This document shows positions 14,470-57,122 of a DNA stretch of 64,000 bases, piece after piece. Source of the DNA: Limisphaerales bacterium (lineage in GTDB: Bacteria; Verrucomicrobiota; Verrucomicrobiia; Limisphaerales; AAA164-E04); assembly GCA_024761205.1 (NCBI GenBank), contig JAMASS010000012.1:1-64000 (forward strand). Reading direction: 5' to 3'. The position numbers and the translations under genes were made by a program. Under the pieces are notes generated by a model, which was not told the DNA's origin, did not search any database, and worked only from the letters and a program-made list of their open reading frames with translations. The first letter of the stretch is position 1, and each line of letters begins with the position of its first letter.

Positions 14470-14850
14470 GTTCGCCGGAGGTAGAGGCGGTTCTTTACAA
14501 GAGGGCGGGCGGCGGGAAAGACCGGGCGATGCGTCAGATTCGGGCGAAGGCGGCGGTGCACGGACGAGGCAGCGGCTTATGCGGGATTCGCCCATGAAGG
14601 AGATCAATCACTCCGAATACGTGTGCGGCACGGTGCACCCGAACGGTGTGGAATCCTTCTGGCTCATGCTGAAACGGGCATACAAGGGCACGTTTCACAA
14701 AATCTCCCCTAGGGACCTGAATCAGTGCATTCAAGAATTTTCGTCGGCAAGCTCGGGTCTTCGCCAAGCGGACACGCTGGCGCAAATGACTGCGCTGGCC
14801 GTCGGCCTTGTTGGGCGTCGGCACGGCCCTTTCATCGCTGATAACGGACT
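14470..14850 (+). mobile_element. IS1595-family transposase, C-terminal fragment
   Basis: The frame carrying INHSEYVCGTVHPNGVESFW, LMLKRAYKGTFHKISP and LRQADTLAQMTALAVGLVG matches the C-terminal half of ISXO2-like (IS1595) DDE transposases: H-S-x-x-E-Y-V, H-T-N-x-x-E-S-F-W-x-x-L-K-R, G-x-x-H-x-x-S-P-K. A preceding frame reads DEAAAYAGFAHEG, the second-Asp region, so a frameshift lies near 14600. The N-terminal half and its zinc ribbon are absent. The fragment abuts the truncated acyl-CoA ligase on the left. Confidence 0.8.
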
Positions 14851-15138
14851 GCCTTGGGAAGCGGGGGCATGCCACCCGAGATTGAAGGGGTATTTTGGTG
14901 TTCCGCCGGGCGGCATTGATGCGAGCAGCCATCCGATTGGGAATCTTTCCGGCGTCGGCTTGATCGGGCCTTGCCGAAGCTCTATGGAACGATCCCGCTT
15001 GCCGTCGGATGATTACCCCCCATCCCCGAAGCGACGGCGAGAGACCGAGTGGACAATGTCCGCTATCCCACAAAGACTTTTGCCGCTAAATCGAGTGTAT
15101 AATCTCCCAGTGAAAGGGTGTAACTATTGGGAGTGGGC

Positions 15139-16554
15139 ATGGTCTCCAGAGTTAGCATGAGCAAGGCATTGAACACGTCTTCAAGGGCGATGTTGCTTGG
15201 TGTGGGCTGGTTGTTGTTCGTGACCTCATCCCTTAGGGCGAGGCCGCTCTCGGTGGGACAATCCTTTCCGGAGCTGCTGTTGCCTAGGGCAAGCGATGGG
15301 ACTCCGGACTCTTTGAGTTTCTATCGCGGTCGAAAGACAGTGGTTCATGTCTTTGCCTCCTGGTGAGCGGGTTGTCGTGAGCATGTGCCCGGGTGGCACG
15401 CCCTAACAGAGCCATATCAGGATCAGGGACGGCTGAATGTTGTGGGGGTGATCCAGGAGCAGCATCCAGATAGAGCACGCCTTTTCATGCAATGGAAGCA
15501 GATGGAGTGGCCTCTTATGGTGGATTCTTTGAACCTACTTGCCTTTGTTGGGGCTCCGATCACAGTCTTCGTTGATGAAGGTGGCACAGTCCGCGCCATT
15601 AACCCGCCGAGAGACTCTCTCAAAGATTTTCTGAATGCGGATTATGATGTTGATCCTACGAGTGCCTGGCTTACTAATCGACCGGTCGCAAGGGGGTTGC
15701 TTGCTGAATCAACACAGGATTCCGCTCGGCGTGGCGATCTTGAGTTTCTTTGGGGAGGGGTTGATGGTGTGGATCGAGCGATTGGAGCCTACCGTCGGAT
15801 TTTGTCCAGAAATCCTGATGATGCGTCCATTTATTTCCGTTTAGGGGTGGCGTATCGGCAGCGCTATGATGGCGAAGGGAGGCAGAGTGATGATTTTGCT
15901 CAGGCCGTGACTCATTGGAGCAAGGCACTTGAGATGAATCCGAATCAGTATATTTGGCGACGACGGATTCAGCAGTATGGCCCTCGACTAGCGAAGCCGT
16001 ATTCATTTTATGATTGGATTCATGAAGCTCGAGAAACCATTGCCGATTGGGGAGAGGTTCCCGTTCCGTTGGCGGTTGAGCCGGGAGGCGCTGAGTTTGC
16101 CTATCCTGCGGAATCATTTGTTGGAGCGAAAAGTGCGGTGAACCCCGATGCCGAGGGGCGCATCTACCGAGATTCCGAACGCTTGGTCCGAATCGAATCC
16201 ACGGTAGTTCCCGGGCAGGTTCAACCGGGGGATGTAATGCGGGTGCACATTGTGATGCAACCTGATGAAGCGCGCAAAGTTCATTGGAACAATGAGGTGG
16301 GTGACTTAGTCCTATGGGTGGATGTTCCGGATGGATGGCAGGTCGACGCGGCGTTGCATCAATATTCGGTTCCTCCGGCTCCGGTTACGGTTGAGCCCCG
16401 GAAGGTGGAGTTCGAAGTGAAGACCTCTACTGAAGGAACTCCATTGCACGATATCGTTCGAGGCTATGTGTTGTATTACATTTGTGAAGGTGTAAATGGG
16501 CAGTGTCTTTATAGAAGGCAGGACTTTGAGGTCAACGTTCCGTTCGGGTCCTAA
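15139..16554 (+). CDS. Predicted selenoprotein: TlpA/redoxin-like domain with TPR region, UxxC motif
   Basis: Reading TGA 15364-15366 as selenocysteine gives one 471-residue protein. Residues 1-35 are a signal peptide or membrane anchor; 40-165 are a thioredoxin fold with VVHVFASW-U-AGC (Sec76 in place of the first Cys of CxxC) and the cis-proline region FVGAPITVFVDEGG; about 180-300 are TPR-like helices (PDDASIYFRLGVAYRQRY); the last 150 residues are beta-rich and end with ICEGVNGQCLYRRQDF, recalling DsbD-type N-terminal domains. The frame is intact on both sides of the TGA, and a SECIS-like hairpin follows 18 bases later. ATG 15139 has GGGAG upstream. Likely a periplasmic thiol/selenol oxidoreductase. 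A nonsense mutation is the alternative but explains neither motif nor hairpin. Confidence 0.82.
15385..15399 (+). promoter_or_regulatory. Candidate bacterial SECIS hairpin 1
   Basis: Five perfect pairs GTGCC/GGCAC with the loop CGGGT; a T-G pair extends it by one. The loop has G at its second position, about 25 bases after the TGA, as expected for a bacterial SECIS that binds SelB. It lies inside the coding region just after the selenocysteine codon. Confidence 0.65.
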
Positions 16555-16593: not shown

Positions 16594-17142
16594 ATGATGA
16601 AGCGAAGTATGTTGTTGATTGTGGGTCTCTTGGCTTGTCTTGGGTCCGCCACGGCTTTCGGTGCTGAGAAGAAGGCCGGACCGGGAATCAAGGTTGGTGC
16701 CAAGGGGCCATCGATTAACCTGGAGGATCAGAACGGGAAGAAGTGGACCCTGGCGGATCTTTCCGGGCAAAAGAAGAAGGTCGCATTGGTCTTTTATCGG
16801 TCTGCAGATTGGTGACCGTTCTGCAAACGGCAGTTCGTTGAACTGCAGGGCAATATTTTGAAATTGGAGAAGGCCGGAATCCAGGTCGTTGGTATCAGCT
16901 ACGACTCGCGGGAGATTCTCTCGCGGTTTGCCAAACGCAACAAGATCACATTTCCTTTGCTAGCCGATGTGGGCAGCAAGGTAATCGATGCGTATGGCAT
17001 TCGGAACAAGTCCCGGCGGGATGGGATTCCACATCCCGGAACTTTCATTCTAGGAGCGGATGGAACCGTCATTGCAAAGCTCTTTCATGAGGGCTATCGC
17101 AAGCGGCATGTCAGCGACGAGATTATTGAGGCGGCAAAGTAG
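16594..17142 (+). CDS. Predicted selenoprotein: peroxiredoxin/AhpC-TSA-like, UxxC motif
   Basis: Reading TGA 16813-16815 as selenocysteine joins two frames into a 182-residue protein. Residues 1-24 are a signal peptide ending in ATAFGAE. The AhpC/TSA fold follows: GAKGPSINLEDQNGKKWTL, VALVFYRSADW-U-PFCKRQFVEL (Sec74, then Cys77), VVGISYDSREILSRFAKRNK and HPGTFILGADGTVIAKLFHE. Cysteine-containing relatives read S-A-D-W-C-P-[FY]-C-K here, so TGA stands exactly at the active Cys. A perfect six-pair SECIS-like hairpin follows. ATG 16594 (or 16597) has AAAGGA upstream. It lies 39 bases after the other selenoprotein gene, probably in one operon, and is convergent with moaA. Likely an exported peroxidase or thiol reductase. 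Confidence 0.88.
16830..16846 (+). promoter_or_regulatory. Candidate bacterial SECIS hairpin 2
   Basis: Perfect six-pair stem GCAGTT/AACTGC with a five-base loop CGTTG. G is at the second loop position, 22 bases after the TGA, within the usual window for bacterial SECIS elements. Confidence 0.75.
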
Positions 17143-17151
17143 TCTTTCGCT

Positions 17152-18207
17152 TTAACCACCGATGCAGGACATTGTCCGGGTGGGTTGCACGAAATCTTCG
17201 CGACCGATTTTGTGGCCCGCCTCTTTCTTGTACACGATGGATTGTAGATGAGCGGCAATGTCTTCGTCGGAGGCTTTGCCGCGAAGCAGGGGTTTGAGAT
17301 CGTGTTCGTGGAGGCTGAAGAGGCAGGTGCGAATTTGTCCATCCGAAGTGAGGCGCAGGCGATTACAATGTCCACAGAACGGCTCGGTGACGGGGGCAAT
17401 GATTCCGACTTCCCCTTTGGCGCCGTTAATTTGCCACCGTTTGGCAGTCTCAGAGGCGTTTGCGCTTTGGGTGGGTGTCAGGTCGAATTTTTTCTGTAGA
17501 CGGGCTAGGATTTTGTTGCCTGAAAACACGTGCTCGTTCTGCCAGGCTTTGCTGGAATCGAGCGGCATGAACTCGATGAATCGAACGCTAATTTGTTCGT
17601 CGAGGGCGTATTGGCAGAGGCCTTCGATTTCGTGATCGTTGATGTCTCTGATGATGACGGCGTTGACCTTGATCGGATCAAAACCCAACTCCTTGGCAAG
17701 CTGAACGGAGCGGGTGACCTTGGCGAGTCCCTGAACACCGGTCAGGCGTTTGAAATTGTCCTTGTCGAAGGAGTCGAGGCTAAAACTGACTCGGTGCAGT
17801 CCAGCCTCTCTAAGCTCGATGGCGTATTTGGGGAAAAGAAAACCATTCGTGGTCATTGCCAAATCTCGAATCCCGGGAATCCGCGCTAGTTTTTGGATGA
17901 GGGTGGCAATGTTTTGCCGGAGCAGGGGTTCGCCTCCGGTGAGGCGAATCTTCTCAATGCCACAGGCTACGGCGATTTGAGCCGTCCGCTCGATTTCCTC
18001 GAAGGAAAGAATCTCGTGTTTTGGCTTCCATTGGTGATGGATGGGGATACCCGGATTTTGGTTCCACCGGCTGCGATAGAAATTAGCGGCTGCCTCGGTT
18101 TCAGGCAGGCAGTAGAGACACCGAAAGTTGCACCGATCGGTGACGCTGATGCGAAGATCCCGGATGGTCCGTTGGTAGGAATCGACCAGAAACGTCTTGG
18201 CCCTCAT
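17152..18207 (-). CDS. moaA: GTP 3',8-cyclase, molybdenum cofactor synthesis
   Basis: Radical-SAM enzyme that converts GTP to 3',8-cyclo-GTP, the first step of molybdopterin synthesis in the cytosol. The N-terminal cluster motif is C26-x3-C30-x2-C33 in DRCNFRCLYC, the SAM-binding GGEP lies in RLTGGEPLLR, and the second [4Fe-4S] site is Cys278, Cys281 and Cys295 in CGHCNRLRLTSDGQIRTC. The protein ends in the essential Gly-Gly (SCIGG). Length 351 with an insertion of about 18 residues after LPE (FYRSRWNQNPGIP), slightly longer than usual. The ATG overlaps the stop of the upstream coiled-coil gene (ATGA), so the two are translationally coupled. Confidence 0.95.
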   Translation of the reverse strand: MRAKTFLVDSYQRTIRDLRISVTDRCNFRCLYCLPETEAAANFYRSRWNQNPGIPIHHQWKPKHEILSFEEIERTAQIAVACGIEKIRLTGGEPLLRQNIATLIQKLARIPGIRDLAMTTNGFLFPKYAIELREAGLHRVSFSLDSFDKDNFKRLTGVQGLAKVTRSVQLAKELGFDPIKVNAVIIRDINDHEIEGLCQYALDEQISVRFIEFMPLDSSKAWQNEHVFSGNKILARLQKKFDLTPTQSANASETAKRWQINGAKGEVGIIAPVTEPFCGHCNRLRLTSDGQIRTCLFSLHEHDLKPLLRGKASDEDIAAHLQSIVYKKEAGHKIGREDFVQPTRTMSCIGG

Positions 18208-40937: not shown

Positions 40938-42140
40938 ATGCTCCGAGAAACCGAAAGCCAACTTGAACTACCCGCGTTCGCCCAAGAAGGCAACCCAAAC
41001 TATACGGTACGCAAGCGGAGCGAGGCGTCCGATGGCCTTGAAGGTGATCTGTTGGAAATTTCGATGGGGCCGCATCACCCTTCAACCCATGGTGTGTTCC
41101 AAATGAACATCACTTTGGATGGGGAAAGGGTCGTTCGGCTCAAGCCTGTATTTGGTTATCTCCATCGGAACCATGAGAAGATCGCTGAGAACACGACCTA
41201 CTTGGCATCCATGCCTTACACCGACCGGCTGGATTATTTCAACTCGATGACCAGTAATTGGGCCTACGCACTCGCAGTGGAGCGGCTGGCTGGCATCGAA
41301 ACCACCGAACGAGCGGAGCACATACGAATCATCGTTTCCGAATTGACGCGTCTGCTCAATCACACTTGCCTCATCGGCTTCCTAGTGATGGATATGGGCG
41401 CACTTGGCACCCCGCTCATGTATGCCTTTCGCGAACGCGAGAAGATTCTTGATCTCTTCGAGTCCCTCAGCGGTTCCCGCATGATGTGCAACTACATGCG
41501 CTTCGGCGGATGCCGCTGCGACTTGCCTGAGGGTTGGCTCGATCAGGCACAGGATTTTCTCTATCACTTCGCCAGTTTTCTGGATAACTACGAGAAACTC
41601 CTCACTGAGAATGAGATTCTCAAGGCGAGAACGCAACAGGTCGGCATCCTTTCACCCGAGCTCGCCCTGAATGCCGGGATTTCCGGTCCCATGCTGCGAG
41701 CTAGTGGGGTTAACTACGACATCCGCAAGGTCGACCACTATGGCATCTATGATCGATTCGACTTTCGCGTGCCCTTGGGAGAGGTGGGCGATGTCTACGA
41801 CCGTTACATGGTCCGCATCCTCGAGATGCGCGAGTCCCTAAAAATTCTGCAGCGGGCCCTACAGGATATTCCTGAAGGAGAGATCGTCAATCCCAAGGCG
41901 AAACTTCGTGGTTTTCGCCCCAAACCCGGCGAAGCGTACGGTCGCATTGAAGGGCCCAAGGGCGAGCTGGGGTTTTATTTGATCAGCGACGGTTCGCCAA
42001 AGCCATACCGGTATCGCGTCCGTCCCCCCAGTCTCATTAATCTCACCATACTCGAAGATATGTGCCTTAACCATACCGTGGCGGACGTCGTCGTTATTCT
42101 TGGCAGCGTAGATATTGTGTTGGGCGAAGTTGATCGCTAG
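40938..42140 (+). CDS. nuoD: NADH-quinone oxidoreductase subunit D
   Basis: The 49-kDa subunit that forms most of the quinone-binding cavity with NuoB. Landmarks are [47 protein letters not shown] and [16 protein letters not shown]. The length is 400 residues, standard. It starts 15 bases after nuoC. In the common gene order nuoE, F and G would follow; here nuoI follows instead. Confidence 0.96.
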
Positions 42141-42147
42141 GCTCGCC

Positions 42148-42175
42148 CTCTAAATCATGGGGACAAGTTTTAGAG
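42148..42175 (+). other. Hairpin in the nuoD-nuoI gap
   Basis: CTCTAAA and TTTAGAG form seven pairs around a 14-base loop in the only sizeable gap (95 bases) of the operon. No T-run follows, so full termination is unlikely; it could mark the place where other nuo genes were lost or act in mRNA processing. Confidence 0.3.
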
Positions 42176-42235
42176 TGTCGCCAAATTCGCTACCTACAGG
42201 TACTAAAAGACGATTGCGTTAATTCGATCAAAAAC

Positions 42236-42868
42236 ATGCTAGGCACCGGAATTATCAAAGGGATGGCTCAAACGGCAAAAAACTTTGCCGAATCATTCCG
42301 TGACCCCAAATACCTGACGACCGTTCAATACCCCGAGCAGCGAATTCCCACCAAGGAGAATAACCGCAACTTTCCCTTCCTAGTCCATGACGGGGACAAC
42401 CCGATAGAAGGACTCCGCTGTGTGGCATGCCATATCTGCGAAAAAGAATGCCCACCTCAGTGCATTTACATCGAGAAGGACAAAACCAAGAAACCGGACC
42501 ACGTCGGCAAGCTACAGTTTCAGCCCTTGGTATTCGATATCGACATCTCGGTTTGTATGAGCTGCCAAATCTGTGTCGAGGTCTGTCCTTTTGATGCGAT
42601 CAAGATGGACACGGATTTCGAACTCAGCCAAACAGACCGGTTTGCGGGCCTGCTGGTAGACAAACATCAACTGGCGAAATCCAACGACTACTACCGAAAG
42701 ATTCACCCCACCGAAGCCAAAGCCATCGATGCCAATCGTGCAGCCGAGGTCAAGAAGGCCAAAGCCAAAGCTGCCGCTAAAGCGAAGGCCGACGCCGAAA
42801 AAGCTAAGGGAGCCGAAGTCGCGGCCACCGCTCAACCGGAACCGACGAACTCCAACCCATCCGCCTAA
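42236..42868 (+). CDS. nuoI: NADH-quinone oxidoreductase subunit I
   Basis: Ferredoxin-like subunit with clusters N6a and N6b. Two C-x2-C-x2-C-x3-C-P motifs are visible: CVACHICEKECP and CMSCQICVEVCP. The 210-residue protein is longer than usual because of a C-terminal tail of alternating Ala/Lys (KKAKAKAAAKAKADAEKAKG) followed by a Pro/Asn-rich end; the function of the tail is unknown. ATG 42236; nuoH starts 6 bases after the stop. Confidence 0.95.
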   Translation: MLGTGIIKGMAQTAKNFAESFRDPKYLTTVQYPEQRIPTKENNRNFPFLVHDGDNPIEGLRCVACHICEKECPPQCIYIEKDKTKKPDHVGKLQFQPLVFDIDISVCMSCQICVEVCPFDAIKMDTDFELSQTDRFAGLLVDKHQLAKSNDYYRKIHPTEAKAIDANRAAEVKKAKAKAAAKAKADAEKAKGAEVAATAQPEPTNSNPSA

Positions 42869-42873
42869 CTCCA

Positions 42874-44034
42874 TTGGAAACGCTACTCGTCACGATCAAG
42901 AGCCGGATGATGGATTGGGCACCCGAAGGGCTGCAACCCCTAGTCGGCCATTTCCTCTCGATCGTTCTGTTAATCAGTGTCTTTTCCGGATTCTTTGCGC
43001 TCACGACGTGGGTGGAACGAAAAGCACTCGGACGCATTCAGAACCGCCTCGGTCCGAATCGCGTGGGTCCCGTCGGCATCCTCCAACCCATCGCGGATGG
43101 ACTCAAGATGATCTTCAAAGAGGACATCGTCCCCAGATCAGCCGACAAAGTCATCCACTTTCTTGCGCCGGTCCTTTTGGTGGTGCCGACATTCCTGGCA
43201 TTTTCGGTGCTTCCTTACGGCCAACATCTCGTGCCAATCAATCTAGACGCGGGAATTCTCTTTTTCTTCGCCATTGGAAGCGCCACCGAACTCACGGTTT
43301 TCATGGCGGGTTGGGCCAGTCGAAACAAGTACGCCATGCTCGGAGCGATGCGCGCCATTGCCCAGATGATCAGTTACGAAGTGCCGCTCATTCTTTCGTC
43401 GGTCACTGTCATCATGATGGCGGGCTCCCTCTCGTTAGTGGATATCGTCACCGAGCAATCGGGTGGATTCTGGCATTGGTACGTGGCTACTCCTTGGGGC
43501 ATTACCAGTTTTGTGCTCTTCCTTACCTCAGCGCTCGCTGAGTCCAACCGGTCCCCCTTCGACATTCCCGAAGCGGAGTCGGAGATTATTGCCGGGCACA
43601 TGACCGAATACTCCGGTTTCAAGTATGCCCTCTTTTTCTTAGCAGAGTATCTTGGACTCTTCGCGATGAGCGGATTGGCCGTAACCCTGTTCTTGGGGGG
43701 CTTCCACCCACCACTCAGCTTCCTTGATTTTGTTCCGGGGCCCTTGTGGTTTTTTGCGAAGTTCGCCTGTCTCATCGCCTTGTTCATTTGGATCCGTGGC
43801 ACGCTGCCGCGCCTGCGCATGGATCAGCTCATGAATCTCGCCTGGAAATTTATACTTCCAATGACCCTCGTGACTTTTGCCGCAGCCGCAGCCTGGCACT
43901 ATGCTCAAGACTTCAGCCCCCTCGCGGCCTGGGCGATCTGCGTCCCGTTGATTGTGATCCCCTACCTCACCTTGGGAAAGCGTCTGGGACAGAGCCAAAA
44001 CGTCACCAAACGCGCTTATCGATTCGCCGACTAA
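42874..44034 (+). CDS. nuoH: NADH-quinone oxidoreductase subunit H
   Basis: Membrane subunit at the base of the quinone channel, 386 residues with about eight to nine helices. Signature motifs: VERKALGRIQNRLGPNRVGP, ADGLKMIFKEDIVP, ESNRSPFDIPEAESEIIAGH and WIRGTLPRLRMDQLM. The start codon is TTG 42874, in frame with SMET-like beginning (TTG GAA ACG). It is followed by nuoJ after 3 bases. Confidence 0.95.
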   Translation: METLLVTIKSRMMDWAPEGLQPLVGHFLSIVLLISVFSGFFALTTWVERKALGRIQNRLGPNRVGPVGILQPIADGLKMIFKEDIVPRSADKVIHFLAPVLLVVPTFLAFSVLPYGQHLVPINLDAGILFFFAIGSATELTVFMAGWASRNKYAMLGAMRAIAQMISYEVPLILSSVTVIMMAGSLSLVDIVTEQSGGFWHWYVATPWGITSFVLFLTSALAESNRSPFDIPEAESEIIAGHMTEYSGFKYALFFLAEYLGLFAMSGLAVTLFLGGFHPPLSFLDFVPGPLWFFAKFACLIALFIWIRGTLPRLRMDQLMNLAWKFILPMTLVTFAAAAAWHYAQDFSPLAAWAICVPLIVIPYLTLGKRLGQSQNVTKRAYRFAD

Positions 44035-44037
44035 GGA

Positions 44038-44592
44038 ATGAGCGCCGCCTTTGCAGTCATCGCCCTGACAACGCTGGCCGGAGCGCTGGGTACCATCGCC
44101 CTCCGCCAGATCGTGCATTGCATCCTGTGCTTGGCGATCACGTTCACCGGGGTGGCGATGCTCTATTTGCAGCTTGGCGCTCAGTTTCTTGGCTTTGCCC
44201 AATTTCTGGTTTACATCGGTGCCGTGACGATTCTGATCTTATTCGCCATTTTGCTGACGCGAAATACCGGCCCGAATTTGAGCGAATCACCCTTTTCAAC
44301 GGGATTGGAAACCGGCCTGATCATCAGTGGCAGCGTCTTCGCCTGTCTGATCTGGATGATTCAACGGACACCAACCCTGCAACAATCACAGCCGGCCGAC
44401 AGCGAACTCACCGTCAAGATGATCGGTGATGGACTGATGACCAAGTACATCATTCCGCTCGAGATCGTCGCCCTTTTGTTGACTGTCGCCATGATCGGAG
44501 CCGTCATTATTGCGATGAAAGAATCCACGACACCAAACACTGGGACGAATCCGGCAACCAACCGCGGTTCCCCACCACCACCTGCACCCTAA
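44038..44592 (+). CDS. nuoJ: NADH-quinone oxidoreductase subunit J
   Basis: Five-helix membrane subunit of the proton-transfer chain, 184 residues. The helix LQLGAQFLGFAQFLVYIGAV and TILILFAILLTR carries the conserved Y-x-G-A-V-x-I-L-x-x-F motif (pi-bulge helix). The C-terminus is Pro/Thr-rich (PNTGTNPATNRGSPPPPAP). Confidence 0.93.
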   Translation: MSAAFAVIALTTLAGALGTIALRQIVHCILCLAITFTGVAMLYLQLGAQFLGFAQFLVYIGAVTILILFAILLTRNTGPNLSESPFSTGLETGLIISGSVFACLIWMIQRTPTLQQSQPADSELTVKMIGDGLMTKYIIPLEIVALLLTVAMIGAVIIAMKESTTPNTGTNPATNRGSPPPPAP

Positions 44593-44598
44593 AACACT

Positions 44599-44910
44599 AT
44601 GGCTTCACTCTCTAGCTATTTATTGTTGAGCGCGATGTTGTTTTGTCTGGGATTGGCAGCCGTTCTCGTTCGGCGGAACGCAATCCTGATCTTGGTGGGA
44701 ATCGAATTGATGTTGAACGCGGCCAACCTTAATTTCATTGCATTTTGGCGATTCAGCCCGAATCCGGAGGTCCTCTCCGGTTTGATGTTTGCCCTTTTCT
44801 CAATCGCTGTCGCCGCGGCCGAGGCAGCCGTGGGCCTCTCGCTGATTATCGCGGTCTACCGGCATTACCGCACCACCGACACTGAACGAATCAACGAGTT
44901 AAGGAGCTAG
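44599..44910 (+). CDS. nuoK: NADH-quinone oxidoreductase subunit K
   Basis: Small antiporter-like membrane subunit, 103 residues and three helices. The conserved glutamates are in [15 protein letters not shown] and [14 protein letters not shown]. It shows normal length without an insertion. ATG 44599, six bases after nuoJ. Confidence 0.94.
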
Positions 44911-44932
44911 TCAAGTCGCATATCGAGAATTT

Positions 44933-47023
44933 TTGGATAACAGGGCATTGAGCAATATCGTCAACATACTTTGGTTGATTCCCTTGCTGCCACTATTAGC
45001 GGCGGCGGGGTTGGCTCTTGCGCCCAGGCTGAAGAAGAAATGGGCCTCCTCCGTTGCGGTCAGTGCCCTCAGCCTTTCCTGCGTCCTTTCTGTCGCTGCC
45101 TTCGCGACGACCCTGAGAAATGAGGCAGACGGGGAAAGCAAGCCGCCGACATCTACCGTTGAGTGGTTTAAAATGGGAAAGACCAGCCTACAAATCGGTT
45201 GTGTCTTGGATCCTTTAACCGCGGTCATGTCCGTCATGGTGACGTTCGTCGGTGCATTGATCTTCCTATTCAGCATCGGATACATGGCCAACGATGAACG
45301 ATACACCCGGTTCTTCTGTTATCTGAGCTTCTTCGCTGCCGCGATGCTGGGCATCGTCATTTCCAATAGTCTATTGCTGCTCTTTATCTGCTGGGAATTG
45401 GTAGGCGTAGCCTCCTATCTCTTGATCGGATTTTGGGCGCATAAGCCTAGTGCTGCAGACGCAGCCAAGAAGGCCTTTATCACCACCAGGATCGGAGACA
45501 TCGGATTCTTCATCGGCATGCTCTGGCTTTCCTCCGCATCCGGAACGCTGCTGTTCTACGACGGCGGCAACGGCTGCCTCGAAACCGACGCTCTCAATAG
45601 TCTCGGCGCTCAGGTCACCTTTTTTGGACTCGCCCTCTCAACCGCGATCACCCTCTTCATTCTGTGGGGTGCGATCGGGAAATCGGGGCAATTACCTCTT
45701 CACGTTTGGCTCCCCGATGCCATGGAAGGGCCCACGCCCGTGAGCGCTTTGATCCATGCCGCGACCATGGTTGCGGCCGGTGTTTTCTTGATGGCTCGAC
45801 TTTATCCGCTCATGGACGCTTCTGGAACCGGGGATGCAGTAGACCATGCTTCGATCTCAGGGTCATTAACCGCGGCGACTTGGATCGGTAGTTTGACGGC
45901 GTTGTTTGGCGCACTGATCGCGGTGGCCCAAACCGACATCAAACGGATCTTGGCGTACTCCACCGTCTCCCAGCTAGGTTACATGATACTCGGCCTCGGC
46001 ACCGGCGGTCCAGCCGTCGCGATGTTTCACCTCATCACTCACGCGTTTTTCAAAGCGCTGTTGTTTCTGGGCGCCGGCTCAGTGATCCACGGTTGCCACG
46101 ACGAACAAGACATTCGTCGCATGGGCGGGTTGAAGAAATCCATGCCAATCACTTTTGCCACCTACGCCATCGGCATGCTAGCGCTCTCTGGATTCCCGCT
46201 GCTTTTCTCGGGCTTTTGGAGTAAAGACGCGATTCTACACAGCACTCACGCGTGGTCGCTTTCGCAACTTCCCTTCTTGTTCGCCCTCGCGAGCGTCTTC
46301 CTGACCGCGTTCTACATGAGTCGGCAAATGGCTTATGTGTTCTTCGGCGGGAACCGTCTGATGACCGACCCCGGCCATTCGCCGGCAAAACCGCACGAGA
46401 GTCCCGCGATCATGACGTGGCCACTGATCGTGTTGGCGGCAGGTGCCATGCTTCTTGGATTCCTGGGAACGCCAGCCTTTCCCGCCTTTCAGAACTACCT
46501 GGAAGGGGAAACAGTCAGCCTTTCGATCAGCGCTCTTTTTCACGTCGAGGCGCTGACGGTCATGATTCTGTCCTCGGTCATCGCGATCGGCGGCATGGCG
46601 GTTGGTTGGTGGCTCTATCACGAATCCAGGTTCAATCCGGCGAAGTTGAAAGACCCGCTGCGACGGATGCTGCCACGATACTTTACCTTGGCGGAGAATC
46701 GATTTTTTGTGGACGAATGTTACGAAGTCACCGTCCTTCGCTGGTCTAAGTTTACCGGCACAGTGGCCGAGCTTGTGGACCGGCAGGTCTTCTCGCGAGT
46801 GGTGAGGTTCACCGTATGGGTCGTTTTGGGTGTTGCCTGGGCCACGCGCTTCACAGACGAGCATTTGGTGAACGCTGGATTTGACCGATCCTGCCAAGGG
46901 CTCCGGCGTAGCTCCTCGTTACTAGCCAAAATTCAAAGCGGTCACATTCAAACCTACCTGAAAATCGTTGGTGCCAGTCTGGTTATTATCGCTTTGGTAG
47001 CGGTGTTTCTCGATCGCTTATGA
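44933..47023 (+). CDS. nuoL: NADH-quinone oxidoreductase subunit L
   Basis: Distal antiporter-like proton pump with the long lateral helix, 696 residues. Landmarks: CWELVGVASYLLIGFW, GKSGQLPLHVWLPDAMEGPT, ALIHAATMVAAGVFLMARLY and RILAYSTVSQLGYMILGLG with key Glu and Lys residues. No ATG is available: the start is TTG 44933 or TTG 44948. The C-terminal part after the lateral helix (ILSSVIAIGGMAVGWWLYHE) has a long soluble stretch before the final helix. It ends with an ATGA overlap into the first nuoM. Confidence 0.95.
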   Translation: MDNRALSNIVNILWLIPLLPLLAAAGLALAPRLKKKWASSVAVSALSLSCVLSVAAFATTLRNEADGESKPPTSTVEWFKMGKTSLQIGCVLDPLTAVMSVMVTFVGALIFLFSIGYMANDERYTRFFCYLSFFAAAMLGIVISNSLLLLFICWELVGVASYLLIGFWAHKPSAADAAKKAFITTRIGDIGFFIGMLWLSSASGTLLFYDGGNGCLETDALNSLGAQVTFFGLALSTAITLFILWGAIGKSGQLPLHVWLPDAMEGPTPVSALIHAATMVAAGVFLMARLYPLMDASGTGDAVDHASISGSLTAATWIGSLTALFGALIAVAQTDIKRILAYSTVSQLGYMILGLGTGGPAVAMFHLITHAFFKALLFLGAGSVIHGCHDEQDIRRMGGLKKSMPITFATYAIGMLALSGFPLLFSGFWSKDAILHSTHAWSLSQLPFLFALASVFLTAFYMSRQMAYVFFGGNRLMTDPGHSPAKPHESPAIMTWPLIVLAAGAMLLGFLGTPAFPAFQNYLEGETVSLSISALFHVEALTVMILSSVIAIGGMAVGWWLYHESRFNPAKLKDPLRRMLPRYFTLAENRFFVDECYEVTVLRWSKFTGTVAELVDRQVFSRVVRFTVWVVLGVAWATRFTDEHLVNAGFDRSCQGLRRSSSLLAKIQSGHIQTYLKIVGASLVIIALVAVFLDRL

Positions 47024-48585
47024 ACAGTCTCCCGCTCATCACCCTCATGACTGTCATTCCTCTGATTGGAGGAGGCGTACTCTGGTGCTGCGGTGCCGCA
47101 TGGAACGCCAATCGATCAACCAAGCTGAGCCTTGGAATCAGTTTGCTGACCCTGATGGGCGCCATCTTTCTAGGCCTTCGCTTCAACACCAGTAGTAGAG
47201 ACATCCAAAGCTTCGAGCGCTACTCGTGGATTCCAAGTTTGAATATCGACTACGTCGTGGGGATCGACGGATTGAGCCTGCTCATGATTGCTTTGACAAC
47301 TCTGCTGATTCCGGTCGCTCTTTCCACCGCGCATGAGGTGACGCCTCACCCCCACCGCTTTGCTGCGCTCGTCCTCTTCCTGGAAGCGGGTCTCATCGGG
47401 ACGTTTACGGCCTTGAATTTCTTTCACTGGTTCCTTTTCTGGGAGATTAGTTTGATTCCGGCCTTTTTTCTCATTCGACTCTGGGGAGGCCCTCAAAGAA
47501 GTGCCGCCGCTATCCAGTTTTTCATCTACACCTTCGTTGGCAGTATCGGGTTGCTGCTATCCTTCCTCGCTTTATTTGCCGCAACCGGAATCTTTGATTT
47601 CGCGCAACTTGCCGATCAGGCACGATCCGGCGAACTGATGGGCAACATTGCGATGAATTTGGGCTGGGCCGACATCTCAATCAAACTCATCGGCCTCATC
47701 TTATTCGGGCTCGCCTTCCTCGGTGTTGCCGTCAAAGTCCCGTTGTACCCCTTCCATACCTGGCTCCCAACGACCTATGCGGAAGCGCCGAGTGCCGTTA
47801 CCTTGTTGCTGACCGGGCTGATGTCAAAGATGGGTGTTTACGCCCTGCTCCGATTGATCCTCCCCATTTTTCCCGATCAGGTCGCATTAATGTTTACTCC
47901 TTTGCTGATATTGAGCGTCGGCACGATCGTGCTCTCCGCCTTCGCCGCTTGTTCCCAGACCGACTTGAAGCGAATCTTTGCCTACTCCTCGATCAACCAC
48001 CTCGGCTACTGCTTTCTGGGAACGTTCGCCATTATGGGTGCGAATGTCAGCGGCGTTGCCTCGACTAATGATGGCGCAGCTGTCATCAACGGGGTCGGTC
48101 TCCAAATGTTCAATCACGGCATCGTCGCGGGTTTCATTTTTTACCTGATCAGTCGGCTCGAAAACAGAACCGGCGGGTTGCGAGGCCTGACCGACTTCGG
48201 CGGCCTGCGCTCGGTGGTTCCAAACTACACGACGGCCATGGGAATCGCCCTTTTTGCATTGCTGGGACTCCCCGGGCTGAACGTGTTTATCGGAGAGTTC
48301 CTCATCTTCAAGGGATCCTTCGCCCACGTTAAATGGGCGACGGCAATTGCAACCATGGGGCTTCTGATGACTAGCGTCTTTATTCTAAACGTGGTTCAGA
48401 AAGTTTTTACCGGCCCCTTGAACCCAAAATGGCAGGCCATGCCGGACCTTGACCGTCGAGAATGGTGGATCGTCATTCCCGGTCTGGCGATCATCCTCAC
48501 CACCGGGATCTTTCCCAAAATCCTTTTGCGCTTTGTCAACGAAACCTCGCTGAACCTGCTTGTCCACCTGGGCAGAACGCCGTGA
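47020..48585 (+). CDS. nuoM: NADH-quinone oxidoreductase subunit M, first copy
   Basis: Antiporter-like proton-pumping subunit, 521 residues, about fourteen helices. Motifs: GIDGLSLLMIALTTLLIPVA, FWEISLIPAFFLIRLWGG with the key Glu, VKVPLYPFHTWLPTTYAEAP and RIFAYSSINHLGYCFLGTF. It overlaps the nuoL stop and is followed 75 bases later by a second, distinct NuoM. Confidence 0.94.
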   Translation: MNSLPLITLMTVIPLIGGGVLWCCGAAWNANRSTKLSLGISLLTLMGAIFLGLRFNTSSRDIQSFERYSWIPSLNIDYVVGIDGLSLLMIALTTLLIPVALSTAHEVTPHPHRFAALVLFLEAGLIGTFTALNFFHWFLFWEISLIPAFFLIRLWGGPQRSAAAIQFFIYTFVGSIGLLLSFLALFAATGIFDFAQLADQARSGELMGNIAMNLGWADISIKLIGLILFGLAFLGVAVKVPLYPFHTWLPTTYAEAPSAVTLLLTGLMSKMGVYALLRLILPIFPDQVALMFTPLLILSVGTIVLSAFAACSQTDLKRIFAYSSINHLGYCFLGTFAIMGANVSGVASTNDGAAVINGVGLQMFNHGIVAGFIFYLISRLENRTGGLRGLTDFGGLRSVVPNYTTAMGIALFALLGLPGLNVFIGEFLIFKGSFAHVKWATAIATMGLLMTSVFILNVVQKVFTGPLNPKWQAMPDLDRREWWIVIPGLAIILTTGIFPKILLRFVNETSLNLLVHLGRTP

Positions 48586-48660
48586 CGGCCCATGTTTAAG
48601 TGAACCAAGGAAACCGAACGATACATCTCATCGATTCACACGGCTGGAACGAAGGCGTTC

Positions 48661-50139
48661 ATGCTTAGTTGGACGGTTTACTCCAGCTTCATCGGCGCCT
48701 TGGTGTGTGCCTTGTGGCCTCGACTCTCCGCAGAAGGCTGCCGACGAGTGGCGCTGGGCTCCGCGCTAATCGGGTTAATCTGCGCCACCGTCAGTTGCCT
48801 CCAATACAACATCGACACCAACGCCATCCAGTTCGTCGCCAAATCGGCGTGGATACCTTCCTTGGGAATCAGCTATCACACTGGTGCCGATGGCATCAGC
48901 TTGACCCTCGTTCTGTTGACGGGCCTCACGGCCGTCATCGGAATTCTCTTCTCTTGGGATATCCAACATCGCCCTCAAGAGTTCTTCGCCTTTTTCCTTG
49001 TCCTCATCGGCGGAGTTTACGGGGTGTTTATCAGTTTCGATCTCTTCCTCCTCTTTGTCTTCTACGAAATTGTCATTATCCCGAAATACTTCCTCATCGT
49101 TATCTGGGGATCGACTCGCAAAGAGTATGGCGCCATGAAACTTGTGCTTTACTCATTTGTGGGGAGTGCCTTGGTCCTGATCGGGCTGCTAGCCACTTAT
49201 GTCGAAGCCGGGGCCGTGACGTTTGACCTGATTCAACTCATTGAACATCCCTACTCCCAAAACTTCCAATATTGGGCCTTTCCCGTGACGTTTGTTGGAT
49301 TTGCCGTTTTGGCAGGCCTTTGGCCGTTCCACACCTGGGCGCCTACGGGCCATGTGGCGGCGCCGACTGGAGCGTCGATGTTGCTAGCGGGGGTTGTTAT
49401 GAAACTCGGCGCCTATGGTGCCCTGCGATTTCCCATGACTCTCTTCCCCATGGGACTCGAAACGTGGCGGGATGAGTTGGCACTCTTGGCGGTCGTTGGC
49501 ATCGTTTATGGAGCAACGAGTGCCTTGGTGCAACGAGACTTTAAGTTTGTCATCGGCTACTCCAGCGTCAGCCACATGGGCTTCGTCCTGCTCGGGCTGA
49601 TGGCTACTTCCGAGGTCGGCCTCTCCGGTGCCGTGCTACAGATGTTTTCTCATGGCATTCTGGCCAGCCTTCTGTTCGGGGTCGTCGGGCGCATGGTCTA
49701 TGCTCGCACACACACTCGCGATTTGTCAGAACTCGAAACCCTCCAGCTGGCTAAACGGCTTCCGTTTGCAGCGGGAACGTTTGTGGTTGCTGGATTTGCG
49801 GGCATGGGGATGCCTGGCTTTAGCGGTTTTGTTGCTGAGCTCCAGGTTCTCATCGGCGCTTGGAATAGCTTTCCTACCTTCGCCGTCTTAGCGGGAGTTG
49901 GGATCATTATCGGTGTCAGCTATACGCTTCGGGTCATGATTAAAGCGTTCTTCACGGAGGAAAAACCCTTTGCCAAGTCTCCGAAAACGCCTCTCAGTCC
50001 TTTAACAATTCAGGAGAAAGTGGGAGCGGGAATTCTGATCGCAACCACAACGGTCATCGGTCTCTACCCAAGGTTGCTCTTGGACCTGATCGTGCCCAGT
50101 CTTTCCTCTCCGATGTTGGAACCGCTGATCGCAAAATGA
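48661..50139 (+). CDS. nuoM: NADH-quinone oxidoreductase subunit M, second copy
   Basis: A second NuoM-type antiporter subunit of 492 residues, clearly a paralogue and not a tandem duplicate because it shares only family motifs with the first: GADGISLTLVLLTGLTAVIG, VFYEIVIIPKYFLIVIWGS with the key Glu in helix 5, WPFHTWAPTGHVAAPTGASM and FVIGYSSVSHMGFVLLGLM. It would add a fourth proton-pumping module (L-M-M-N). ATG 48661 follows the first nuoM by 75 bases and the stop overlaps nuoN (ATGA). Confidence 0.93.
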   Translation: MLSWTVYSSFIGALVCALWPRLSAEGCRRVALGSALIGLICATVSCLQYNIDTNAIQFVAKSAWIPSLGISYHTGADGISLTLVLLTGLTAVIGILFSWDIQHRPQEFFAFFLVLIGGVYGVFISFDLFLLFVFYEIVIIPKYFLIVIWGSTRKEYGAMKLVLYSFVGSALVLIGLLATYVEAGAVTFDLIQLIEHPYSQNFQYWAFPVTFVGFAVLAGLWPFHTWAPTGHVAAPTGASMLLAGVVMKLGAYGALRFPMTLFPMGLETWRDELALLAVVGIVYGATSALVQRDFKFVIGYSSVSHMGFVLLGLMATSEVGLSGAVLQMFSHGILASLLFGVVGRMVYARTHTRDLSELETLQLAKRLPFAAGTFVVAGFAGMGMPGFSGFVAELQVLIGAWNSFPTFAVLAGVGIIIGVSYTLRVMIKAFFTEEKPFAKSPKTPLSPLTIQEKVGAGILIATTTVIGLYPRLLLDLIVPSLSSPMLEPLIAK

Positions 50140-51626
50140 CGGAGATCAATTATAGCGACATCCTACTACTACTGATCCCGGAAACGATTCTCGTCATTTC
50201 CGCGCTGGGGGTGCTGACCGCTGATCTCCTCTGGATACGTGAATCGCCCACGGTTCACAGACAAACCATCGCATTTGGCATGACCGTGTTCGGATGTCTA
50301 GCTGCCGTGATCTCCATCATAATGGGTTCACCAATCACCGAAGAACACTGGTTGAATCTAGGAGGGGTGACCGGCACGGTGAAGATCGGACTAATTGGCC
50401 TCACCTTGAGCGCACTCGCCCTCTCAACCAGATCGGCGTTGACGCAACACATTGGTGAGCTCTATCTCATCGTTCTTCTCGCACTTGTTGGAATGCTGCT
50501 GATGGCTAGCGCCAACCATTTGCTCCTCGCCTTCTTGGCCCTGGAGTTGGTCAGCCTCTCCTTCTACACCTTGGTAGCATTTCACAAGCGTAGTCGATCG
50601 GCAATCGAAGGCGCCCTCAAGTACTTCCTATTGGGAGGCGTCGCCGCAGCCTTCACCGCCTTTGGGATGAGTTTTATTTACGGCGCAACTCATTCCCTAA
50701 GTTTTTCCCAGATTGCGATTCAAGTGAGTGCCCCCCCTTTATCTCCGCTGATGTTCATCGGCATGATTGCCATCGCCATTGGGTTTGGGTTCAAGATCGC
50801 CGCCGTTCCGATCCACTTGTGGGCGCCGGATGTCTACCAGGCGGCAGCGCCTCCGATCGGTGCCCTGATCGCATCCGCCTCGAAACTGGCCAGCTTCTAT
50901 CTGTTTGCTCGACTGTGGATGATCGGGCTGGGCCCGCTAGTGGGCCCCACTGGCGTCGATACAATGACCGGCGGTTGGCTGGTGATTCTGGCGTCTCTCG
51001 CTCTCAGCTCACTTGTGATCGGAAATTTGGTCGCCATCACTCAATCGAGCATGAAGCGGCTGCTCGCCTATTCGGCGATCGCACATGCCGGCTATGTCTT
51101 ACTCGGTATCATGGCGAATAATTCACATGGCATGGCCTCCATGATTTATTACCTGATTACTTATGGACTGGCGATCACCGGCGCCTTCGCACTTGTGCAG
51201 TTGGTTGAAAAGCAATACGGAGATGATCAGATTACTTCGTTCGCTAATCTTCACCGCCAACTTCCCGTGGAAGCCTTTTGTTTGTTGATCTTCCTCCTCT
51301 CCTTGGCGGGAATCCCACCGCTAGCTGGGTTCTTTGGCAAGTTCTACCTATTCGCCGCCGCCCTCCAGTCAGCCCAAGCCCCAGGGCTGATGTTTTGGCT
51401 CGTAGTCATCAGTATCGCGATGAGCGCCGTGTCCCTTTACTATTACCTCCGAGTCCTCAAGCAGGTCTATGTCTTCGATGAAGAAGCCTCCAAGGAGGGC
51501 TTCCGATCCGATCCCACTCTCAGAGCGGTCGCAATCATCATGGCGGCGGGGGTGATCCTCTTGGGATGCTTCCCTGATTTGGTGGTCCGGGATCTTCTTG
51601 GTGGGCTTGGCGTCACCGTTCCCTAA
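50136..51626 (+). CDS. nuoN: NADH-quinone oxidoreductase subunit N
   Basis: Innermost of the large antiporter-like subunits, 496 residues, about fourteen helices. Landmarks: LLLAFLALELVSLSFYTLVA with the key Glu, GFGFKIAAVPIHLWAPDVYQ, MKRLLAYSAIAHAGYVLLG and LSLAGIPPLAGFFGKFYLF. It is the last gene of the nuo operon; ATG overlaps the second nuoM. No terminator hairpin is obvious behind it. Confidence 0.95.
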   Translation: MTEINYSDILLLLIPETILVISALGVLTADLLWIRESPTVHRQTIAFGMTVFGCLAAVISIIMGSPITEEHWLNLGGVTGTVKIGLIGLTLSALALSTRSALTQHIGELYLIVLLALVGMLLMASANHLLLAFLALELVSLSFYTLVAFHKRSRSAIEGALKYFLLGGVAAAFTAFGMSFIYGATHSLSFSQIAIQVSAPPLSPLMFIGMIAIAIGFGFKIAAVPIHLWAPDVYQAAAPPIGALIASASKLASFYLFARLWMIGLGPLVGPTGVDTMTGGWLVILASLALSSLVIGNLVAITQSSMKRLLAYSAIAHAGYVLLGIMANNSHGMASMIYYLITYGLAITGAFALVQLVEKQYGDDQITSFANLHRQLPVEAFCLLIFLLSLAGIPPLAGFFGKFYLFAAALQSAQAPGLMFWLVVISIAMSAVSLYYYLRVLKQVYVFDEEASKEGFRSDPTLRAVAIIMAAGVILLGCFPDLVVRDLLGGLGVTVP

Positions 51627-54407: not shown

Positions 54408-57122
54408 ATGAGCCTATTGATTGTTCACGAACTGCACGAAGCCCGAGATCAAATCTTGAGGCTGAAAATCAAGCTCCAGGAATTTCGAAGCAGGGAACTG
54501 CCGAGTTTCGTTCCCTTTCTGGATGAACAAATTCGATCTCTCGATGAAGCACTCAAGCAAGCTCAAATTCCGGACTGCTATCGAGTCGTCGTGGTGGGGC
54601 GCTTCAAAGTCGGCAAATCCAAATTCATCAACACACTCCTTAAGGAACAGCTAGCCGGTGTGCATTCAAGGCCCGAGACTGCCGCCATCTCCCGCTTTCG
54701 TTATGCCAGACGAACCCGAGCCGAAGTCGAATTGGTGAGTCGAGAAGATTGGGAGGATTTGAAAGTCTTTCACAACGAAAATCCAGAAAATCCGGAAGTG
54801 AAGCGCTACGCCCAATTTCAAAACTTTAACGACCGCCCCGCCGCCCGAAAAGACAAAACCGGCAAAGAAATTCAGCGCGAACAGTTTGACCTGAAATCCC
54901 TCGAAAAGGAATGGGTGACTCCTGGAGGAAAGAAACACGAAATTCCTGCCGATAACTGGGCAACGAAAACCGACAAACAGAACTTTCTGAAAGCGATTCG
55001 CCAGTTCACTTCCAGCCAAAAGCCGCTGCATTGTCTGGTCAATCAACTGACCATCTACGCCCCCATTCCCCTGCTTCAGGATAGCATCGAATTGGTGGAC
55101 ACTCCGGGACTCGATGATACGGAGCAATTCCGAGTCCGGCGGACTGAAGACATCGTAAAGAGTGCGGACGCCATTCTCTTTTTGACGACTAGCGGCGGTT
55201 CTTACAGCCAGAGCGACAAGGAGTTCATCATCCGGCAGCTTCGCCTCAGACAGATCAAACACCTGCAACTGATCGTGACCAAGGGCGACGAAACTTTTGA
55301 AAATGCTTGTAGAGACGCCGAGGAAAACAGCGACGATCCACCGGCCTTCGAGCAATTTGCTGAAGATGAAATGGCGCGGGTGAAAAATGAGGCAAAGGCC
55401 ACCCTGAATGAATTGCTCCAAATGGACAAAGTGTCTGAGGAGGATAGCGATTATTACACCCAACAGTTGGATAATGTCCCCGTGCATCTCATTTCGAGGA
55501 AATCTCACAATGATGGCGACCAAATCAAGGACGGCATTGAAGGTGTCCGTAAAGGGCTTTATCAAATTCTCTCCGCTAACGAACGACACATGCACTCGAA
55601 AACGGTTTTGAACGATCGTGGGAAAATGGTTCTCGACCGGCTGCGACAGAGTTGCTCAGAACGTTTAGACACTCTGGGGCATGAATTCGATCCCGCTAAG
55701 GTGGAAGCGGAACTCCAGCAGATTCAAGGTCTGCTCTACGAACAGCTGAAAGAATTCGAAGGACAATCGGAGAAATTTCTCAGTCTCTTGAGCGACGCTC
55801 AGAAGGCTTTCTTAGATCGTGTTCCGGACAAACTTAATTTGATCGGCTATTCCGCTAGGGATGTCCTAGACGATTGGGAGAGGGGTGATCTCGCTAAACA
55901 TTGGGCGACGCGCCGGTGTGGCAATTGGGGACACTTGCCAGATTTAGCAGCCAGGATTGCCGACCGGGTCTTTCCGGAAGTTGAAAGGTTGCTCAACGAG
56001 TTGGGAGAACAGCTTAATATCTTTTTAAAGAAAATGGATTCGCAGGTCAAAAGCTTGCAGACAACAATGAAATCGGTTGAGGCGGAACACCAATTATCCG
56101 GATTGGAACCGATATATCTGGCAGAAAAGTTGGAGCCAACCTTCAAACAGTTACAAAAGACCCTGGACGACGAAACGGCTCAATCCATCAAGGTCAGTAT
56201 CGTGATTCATCTCGCAATGTTCGTGACTGAGGAGGTTGAGGAACGCTTGGAAAAAGCGCGAAAAGAGGTGACCGGTATTTGGGGAGCCGGCACGACAACA
56301 CGACAGAGCGATGAGGTCGGGAGTTTCTACCAGAAGATTCGAGACTTGCTCGTCGAGGCGCTCAAAGATCATCTAAATCAACACATCCGAGGATTCGCTG
56401 TTGACATTGAGAAGCAGGCCAAGAGAGTGGCCCCCGAAATTTGTCAAGCATCCAAAAAAACCATCGAGCAACGCCGGGGAGCCATGAAATCCGCTTTGGA
56501 AGTCTCAACCGCCGGACAGGAGGAGGAGGTCAAAACCCATCTTAGGGAAATGATTGATTTTTTGGACGCAGATTTCCCATCCTTTTCCGTGGCAAGTTCC
56601 ATATCGGACTCCTCGAAATCTGCCCAAAAATCTGAAGCTGACGCTAAGCCCGCACTCAAAGAACAACACTTTGAGATACCTGAGCGAGCCACCGGGTTCA
56701 CTTACGAGCGGATCTTCCGCCCTTACATAGATTCAGCCACCGAGATTTGTGTGGAGGAGCCCTATATTCGCCAACGCTTCCAAGTGGAAAATTTGATTCG
56801 ATTCTGTGCGCTAGCCGTTCGGTTACAAGCGGTTCAATCCATCAAGTTGGTAATGAGCGAAGATTACGGACCGAGCGTCGACGAAGTGGATAGCCGGTTG
56901 GAGACGCTCAAGCGGGATTTGAATTCGCGAGATATTACCTTCAACTGGCGGCGAGACGCCAAACTGCACGACCGGGAAGTCCGGTTTGACAATGGGTGGA
57001 TCGTCAAAATCGGGCGTGGGCTGGACATTTATCACAAACCGGAGGTTTGGAACTCTGTTGAGGCGACGGATTTCAGCTTACGATCTTGCCGACAAACGAA
57101 GGTCGATATTTTCAGGAAGTAG
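54408..57122 (+). CDS. Dynamin-like GTPase fused to a MITD1-type C-terminal domain
   Basis: A 904-residue protein. The GTPase domain carries the P-loop GRFKVGKS at 64-71, the switch Thr region ETAAISRF around 90-97, DTPG at 231-234 and the base-binding TKGD at 291-294, as in bacterial dynamin-like proteins. The middle (about 310-740) is helical with coiled coils. Residues from about 764 read YERIFRPYIDSATEICVEEP, YIRQRFQVENLIRFCALAVR, then HDREVRFDNGWIVKIGRGLD and TDFSLRSCRQTKVDIFRK, which follows the phospholipase-D-like C-terminal domain of eukaryotic MITD1 closely. That domain binds membranes without lipase activity. It probably remodels membranes, possibly in defence or division. It stands alone between ilvD and the convergent phoR. 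Confidence 0.85.
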   Translation: MSLLIVHELHEARDQILRLKIKLQEFRSRELPSFVPFLDEQIRSLDEALKQAQIPDCYRVVVVGRFKVGKSKFINTLLKEQLAGVHSRPETAAISRFRYARRTRAEVELVSREDWEDLKVFHNENPENPEVKRYAQFQNFNDRPAARKDKTGKEIQREQFDLKSLEKEWVTPGGKKHEIPADNWATKTDKQNFLKAIRQFTSSQKPLHCLVNQLTIYAPIPLLQDSIELVDTPGLDDTEQFRVRRTEDIVKSADAILFLTTSGGSYSQSDKEFIIRQLRLRQIKHLQLIVTKGDETFENACRDAEENSDDPPAFEQFAEDEMARVKNEAKATLNELLQMDKVSEEDSDYYTQQLDNVPVHLISRKSHNDGDQIKDGIEGVRKGLYQILSANERHMHSKTVLNDRGKMVLDRLRQSCSERLDTLGHEFDPAKVEAELQQIQGLLYEQLKEFEGQSEKFLSLLSDAQKAFLDRVPDKLNLIGYSARDVLDDWERGDLAKHWATRRCGNWGHLPDLAARIADRVFPEVERLLNELGEQLNIFLKKMDSQVKSLQTTMKSVEAEHQLSGLEPIYLAEKLEPTFKQLQKTLDDETAQSIKVSIVIHLAMFVTEEVEERLEKARKEVTGIWGAGTTTRQSDEVGSFYQKIRDLLVEALKDHLNQHIRGFAVDIEKQAKRVAPEICQASKKTIEQRRGAMKSALEVSTAGQEEEVKTHLREMIDFLDADFPSFSVASSISDSSKSAQKSEADAKPALKEQHFEIPERATGFTYERIFRPYIDSATEICVEEPYIRQRFQVENLIRFCALAVRLQAVQSIKLVMSEDYGPSVDEVDSRLETLKRDLNSRDITFNWRRDAKLHDREVRFDNGWIVKIGRGLDIYHKPEVWNSVEATDFSLRSCRQTKVDIFRK

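Follow-up and report, generated by a model that had tools for sequence, protein, structure and literature searches.

The window, the whole stretch of 64,000 nt that was analysed, contains on its forward strand a gene (15139-16554) interrupted by a single in-frame TGA, which falls at 15364-15366 (residue 76) in the context FASW-U-AGC. The earlier note had described a frame intact except for this codon, and every coordinate it gave was confirmed. The features of the locus are the following.

15139-16554, + strand: Sec-containing protein with ResA/TlpA-like, TPR and Ig-like parts, 471 aa with U76 (stop codon at 16552-16554)
15139-15240, + strand: putative signal peptide (the model has a hydrophobic helix at residues 14-27, and homologues have stretches like it)
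15253-15594, + strand: AhpC-TSA/Redoxin (ResA-like thioredoxin) domain, residues 39-152 (PF00578 above cut-off)
15364-15366, + strand: TGA codon predicted to be read as selenocysteine, U76 (TGA at homologous sites)
15364-15375, + strand: UxxC redox motif U-A-G-C (translation and homologue alignment)
15385-15399, + strand: predicted SECIS apical hairpin GUGCC-CGGGU-GGCAC, with 18 nt between TGA and stem (frozen synonymous sites, pair counts, synonymous randomisation)
15688-15972, + strand: TPR-like helical module, at whose end the conserved block NPNQYIWRRRIQQYGPRLxKPYSFYDW starts
16186-16545, + strand: C-terminal Ig-like beta-sandwich domain (structure model and fold matches)
16483-16506, + strand: conserved Cys pair CEGVNGQC, C449 (TGT 16483) and C456 (TGT 16504)
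16594-17142, + strand: Prx-like selenogene with a WUPFC motif, directly downstream of the main gene and the second interrupted gene
16813-16815, + strand: predicted Sec codon (TGA) of the Prx-like gene (W-TGA-P-[FY]-C counterparts)
16831-16845, + strand: candidate SECIS of the Prx-like gene, the hairpin CAGUUC-GUU-GAACUG (comparable hairpins seen by eye in L050, L030, L092 and L116)

In a mechanical list of ORFs, a downstream ORF of 389 aa opens at GTG 15385, the codon with which the SECIS stem begins. Because this start falls inside the hairpin, the active site would be lost by ordinary annotation, and the gene would be split in the way that the earlier note had expected of gene callers. The remnant of an IS1595-type transposase (14579-15160, + strand) lies immediately upstream of the selenogene, and a MoaA-like radical SAM gene (17152-18207, - strand) is convergent with the selenogene pair. 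Elsewhere in the window, a 904-aa protein (54408-57122, + strand) combines dynamin GTPase at its N-terminus with MIT_C (phospholipase-D-like) at its C-terminus, and the complex I genes (40938-51626, + strand) include four consecutive antiporter-like subunits (44933, 47020, 48661 and 50136) versus the usual three.

Conservation of the TGA codon

Fifteen of the 146 genomes in the search of relatives bear the gene, and TGA is present in every match covering the site. The main search covered 84,980 species genomes by means of two peptide patterns placed far from the TGA site; it returned 196 related loci, of which the best 80 were kept. What homologues carry at this position had been raised as a check on the first reading, and the answer is uniform: a pattern leaving the codon free found TGA, and no Cys codon, at 85 of 85 distinct sites over all loci. 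The 83 distinct aligned sequences likewise all have the TGA, within a U-x-G-C motif. The full-length homologues come from no fewer than four phyla. Several records each fall in Verrucomicrobiota, Acidobacteriota, Planctomycetota and Gemmatimonadota, and single records in Fidelibacterota, Poribacteria, Chloroflexota, Armatimonadota and Actinomycetota; MAG labels can be wrong. The divergence within the family is deep (median end branch of 0.38 changes per column in a preliminary tree), and therefore retention of the TGA does not reflect recent copying. No plasmid match was found.

Profile searches revealed no Cys form of this UAGC family in 388 genomes of the phylum Verrucomicrobiota, nor in 320 genomes of the order. 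L150, the sole match with Cys at the site, belongs to the UGC sister family described below. Because no Cys homologue was found, the UAGC family appears to be Sec-only, a feature that the earlier note had not anticipated; the sequence case for this is strong but not complete, since the search for a Cys form took in the best 80 of the 196 loci from the main search.

The downstream hairpin and the decoding of UGA

The hairpin GTGCC/GGCAC with the loop CGGGT, which the earlier note had placed 18 bases after the TGA, lies exactly there, and comparison of homologues supports its assignment as a SECIS element. The Val codon of the stem is GTG in 82 of 83 distinct sequences, compared with a GTG background of 38.5% elsewhere in the family; the single exception, GTA in L100, has the partner codon TAC, which keeps the pair. 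Moreover, the wobble position of the Pro codon pairs with that of the next codon in 82 of 83 sequences (C-G in 67, G-C in 11, A-U in 4, with one mismatch). Under 20,000 permutations this pairing had a mean of 56 and a maximum of 66, a result that is not a strict probability because related sequences share changes. Since the paired wobble positions are synonymous (Pro; Gly, Val or Ala), the pairing is not explained by selection on the protein. Pair counting gave numbers of paired cells and a covariation score above every shuffle and all slid controls, and the hairpin has a mean of -5.77 kcal/mol, versus a weaker -4.11 +/- 0.18 kcal/mol under synonymous recoding.

Only part of the stem constitutes independent RNA evidence, because much of it underlies the conserved Val-Pro-x-Trp-His, and the invariant stem pairs carry no weight because invariant protein lies over them. 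The case for the hairpin is comparative: in a single-sequence fold of the window's own 45 nt, it is not the minimum free energy choice (z +1.1). RF00031 had no match in the host genome, nor in any control, and its silence is therefore uninformative. Six Planctomycetota loci (L112, L120, L121, L122, L123 and L127) have VPAWN or VPVWN variants; read by eye, these may use a shifted stem such as CAGGCC-GUGCC-GGCCUG or CAGACC-GUGCC-GGUCUG.

The host genome (4.94 Mb in 92 contigs) encodes SelB above the curated cut-off, SelA directly before SelB, and SelD above cut-off, together with a tRNA-Sec that has the anticodon UCA and scores above the gathering score, so that the machinery whose presence in the same genome the earlier note had wished to see checked is all there. 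Among the relatives, Sec machinery was detected in 14 of the 15 gene-bearing genomes. SelB occurs in 11 of these 15, versus 40 of the 131 others (Fisher p 0.003); the four gene-bearing relatives lacking a SelB match are 57-85% complete, and three of the four have selA and tRNA-Sec. In G003, a fragmented relative that retains the 3' part of the gene, selA, selB and tRNA-Sec were not detected. A p value of 3e-6 for any machinery is biased and unreliable, because the extra search for selA and tRNA-Sec was run on the gene-bearing genomes only. In addition, both selA and selB lie near and upstream of the family gene in L050, L092, L113 and L116, and one of the two does so in L088 and L105.

A dead or misread gene, in which the TGA would be a broken Cys codon, might be suspected from the 92-contig draft assembly that supplied the window and from the transposase remnant right upstream. 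However, the TGA is identical at 85 distinct sites across phyla, the protein is conserved on either side of it and other stop codons are never seen there. Conservation in independent genomes led to the rejection of a pseudogene or sequencing error, the probability of which is negligible. The nature of the inserted residue cannot be told from sequence alone, which leaves room for the UGA to be read as an ordinary amino acid (e.g., Cys or Trp) through another tRNA. Opposed to this are the tRNA-Sec with its UCA anticodon, SelA, SelB and SelD of the same genome, the covarying SECIS-like hairpin that follows the UGA, and the occurrence of selA and selB among the gene neighbours in distant lineages; a change of code was rejected on these grounds and is regarded as very improbable. 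The interrupted gene, which the earlier note had called a probable selenoprotein, can be predicted with high confidence to encode a real one, as supported by the homologues that share the TGA, the Sec machinery and the SECIS. SelB and tRNA-Sec would insert selenocysteine at UGA 15364, and the hairpin 18 nt downstream would guide this decoding.

Architecture and possible function of the protein

The AlphaFold2 model, built on the 80-sequence alignment with Cys in place of Sec, has a pLDDT of 91.3 and a pTM of 0.89, and ResA structures head the Foldseek list. The match to Pfam AhpC-TSA/Redoxin above the gathering score and the ResA-like fold bearing U-x-x-C identify a ResA/TlpA-like thioredoxin fold. 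This supports a UxxC thioredoxin-fold active site, in line with the earlier placement of the TGA on the first Cys of a thioredoxin CxxC; the TPR module proposed at the same time is also seen, as TPR helices after the thioredoxin domain in the model.

The C-terminal domain had been described as DsbD-like, which is borne out only in part. The domain folds as an Ig-like beta-sandwich and carries a conserved C-x6-C, but a relationship to DsbD was not established: DsbD_N (PF11412) matches 4 of 79 members weakly (best E 0.047), hhalign of the domain against E. coli DsbD-alpha gives a probability of 0.7%, and DsbD-alpha structures are absent among the VIA-align matches listed for the domain. In the window's protein, the domain has no Pfam family above cut-off and no sequence relative in the PDB.

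In thioredoxin-fold enzymes, the first residue attacks and the second, a Cys, resolves. In the ResA-like domain of this protein, which is predicted to be exported, these roles would fall to Sec76 and Cys79, respectively, and the enzyme would therefore probably act outside the cytoplasm, reducing or exchanging disulfides or oxidised substrates related to them. A role as a thiol/selenol oxidoreductase is thus quite probable. The TPR module would link the thioredoxin domain to the Ig-like domain, whose Cys449/Cys456 pair may exchange electrons with the UxxC site, a relay that is proposed only tentatively.

An even chance is given to a plain Ig domain, structural or substrate-binding, in which the Cys pair forms a structural disulfide and no relay exists; many unrelated Ig-like folds score similarly against the domain (Z 8-10), and NPCBM_assoc matches 22 of 79 members. 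What speaks against such a passive domain is that both Cys are invariant in alignment A4 (among 80 sequences, Cys449 is invariant and Cys456 nearly so), and the analogy with DsbD, where an Ig-like domain and a thioredoxin domain exchange electrons via Cys pairs.

The Prx-like UxxC selenoprotein encoded next door is a likely partner of the main selenoprotein. In L021/L050, L030, L051, L087, L092 and L116, too, the family gene has a counterpart with W-TGA-P-[FY]-C as its neighbour, and hairpins after the TGA were read by eye in most of these counterparts. In L092 and L116, the downstream Prx-like selenoprotein has a long additional N-terminal region.

Relation to known selenoprotein families

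The nearest named family is NF041054 (WAxxUGC_long, a ResA-like protein with a WAxxUGC motif), which reviews probably list as "UGC-containing TlpA". The protein scores 62 bits versus the curated cut-off of 300, and the UGC proteins of the same order likewise remain below it (148-164 bits). These NF041054-like proteins share the thioredoxin domain, the TPR module and the WRxRxQI...P-K-Y...DW block with the protein studied here, and their hairpin, CUGCC-GGUCU-GGCAG, occupies the corresponding position; the profile match to them reaches 99.8% over 263 columns and stops before the Ig domain. Unlike NF041054, the main protein has UAGC rather than UGC and a C-terminal Ig-like domain, whereas the same-order UGC proteins have an extra N-terminal region; moreover, the UGC sister family has a Cys form (L150), while none was found in the UAGC family. 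Given the score of 62 versus 300 bits and a UGC-type match that ends before the Ig domain, the best-supported filing is that of a new family, sister to a selenoprotein kind already known.

A 2026 review counts 119 selenoprotein families, including a "Redoxin family protein, UxxC" (PF08534) (PMC13188914). Since PF08534 matches 78 of the 80 members of the present family, it could already be covered by this entry and not be new. Against this, the GOS Prx-like 3 family, also a pfam08534 UxxC family, has 2,608 Cys homologues versus none found here, and its fusion domain has CxxC, not C-x6-C. The identity therefore seems rather unlikely, on a comparison by description with the entry (representatives HEU0032618.1 and MBA3499694.1); the present family is marked by the NPNQYIWRRRIQQYGPRL block and the C-terminal C-x6-C. 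The architecture was not found described among open-licence papers, supplements being outside the scope of that search.

Among other known systems that resemble the main protein, the ResA/TlpA/DsbE thiol-disulfide oxidoreductases have the same fold and CxxC position, but the main protein has Sec for the first Cys and the added TPR and Ig-like domains. Prx-like thiol:disulfide oxidoreductase selenoproteins (PF00578, UxxC) belong to the same Pfam family and also have UxxC; the neighbour at 16594-17142 looks like that kind, whereas the main protein differs from it by its TPR and Ig-like domains and its UAGC motif. DsbD likewise combines a thioredoxin domain (gamma) and an Ig-like domain (alpha), both of which carry a Cys (or Sec) pair, but the main protein has neither a membrane domain nor a significant sequence match to it. 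The host genome has a separate DsbD_N protein.

To our knowledge, Cys homologues are numerous for almost every selenoprotein family, and methods of prediction depend on them. The authors of deep-Sep point out that their own method may misidentify selenoproteins without Cys homologues (PMC12013277). A widespread Sec-only family, if true, would expose a blind spot of prediction based on Cys homologues, and it raises the testable question of why selenium is irreplaceable in such an enzyme. The pair of selenoproteins, tied in distant phyla to genes of the Sec machinery, would also give a handle on why Verrucomicrobiota, Planctomycetota and Acidobacteriota maintain the Sec trait. The most far-reaching reading is speculative and, taken as a whole, improbable: an obligately selenium-dependent family of several phyla without any Cys form, in which an exported relay would run from Sec-Cys to Cys-Cys (thioredoxin to Ig-like domain) together with the neighbouring Prx-like selenoprotein, sometimes with its own selA-selB, and which would have been missed since search methods rely on Cys homologues.

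In the same order, the UGC sister family (L148-L154) is represented by six proteins with TGA and by a single Cys form with CGC, L150:1153-2373. In this Cys form the hairpin has lost its loop wobble pair (C-C), which is also mismatched (A-C) in the Sec form L152.
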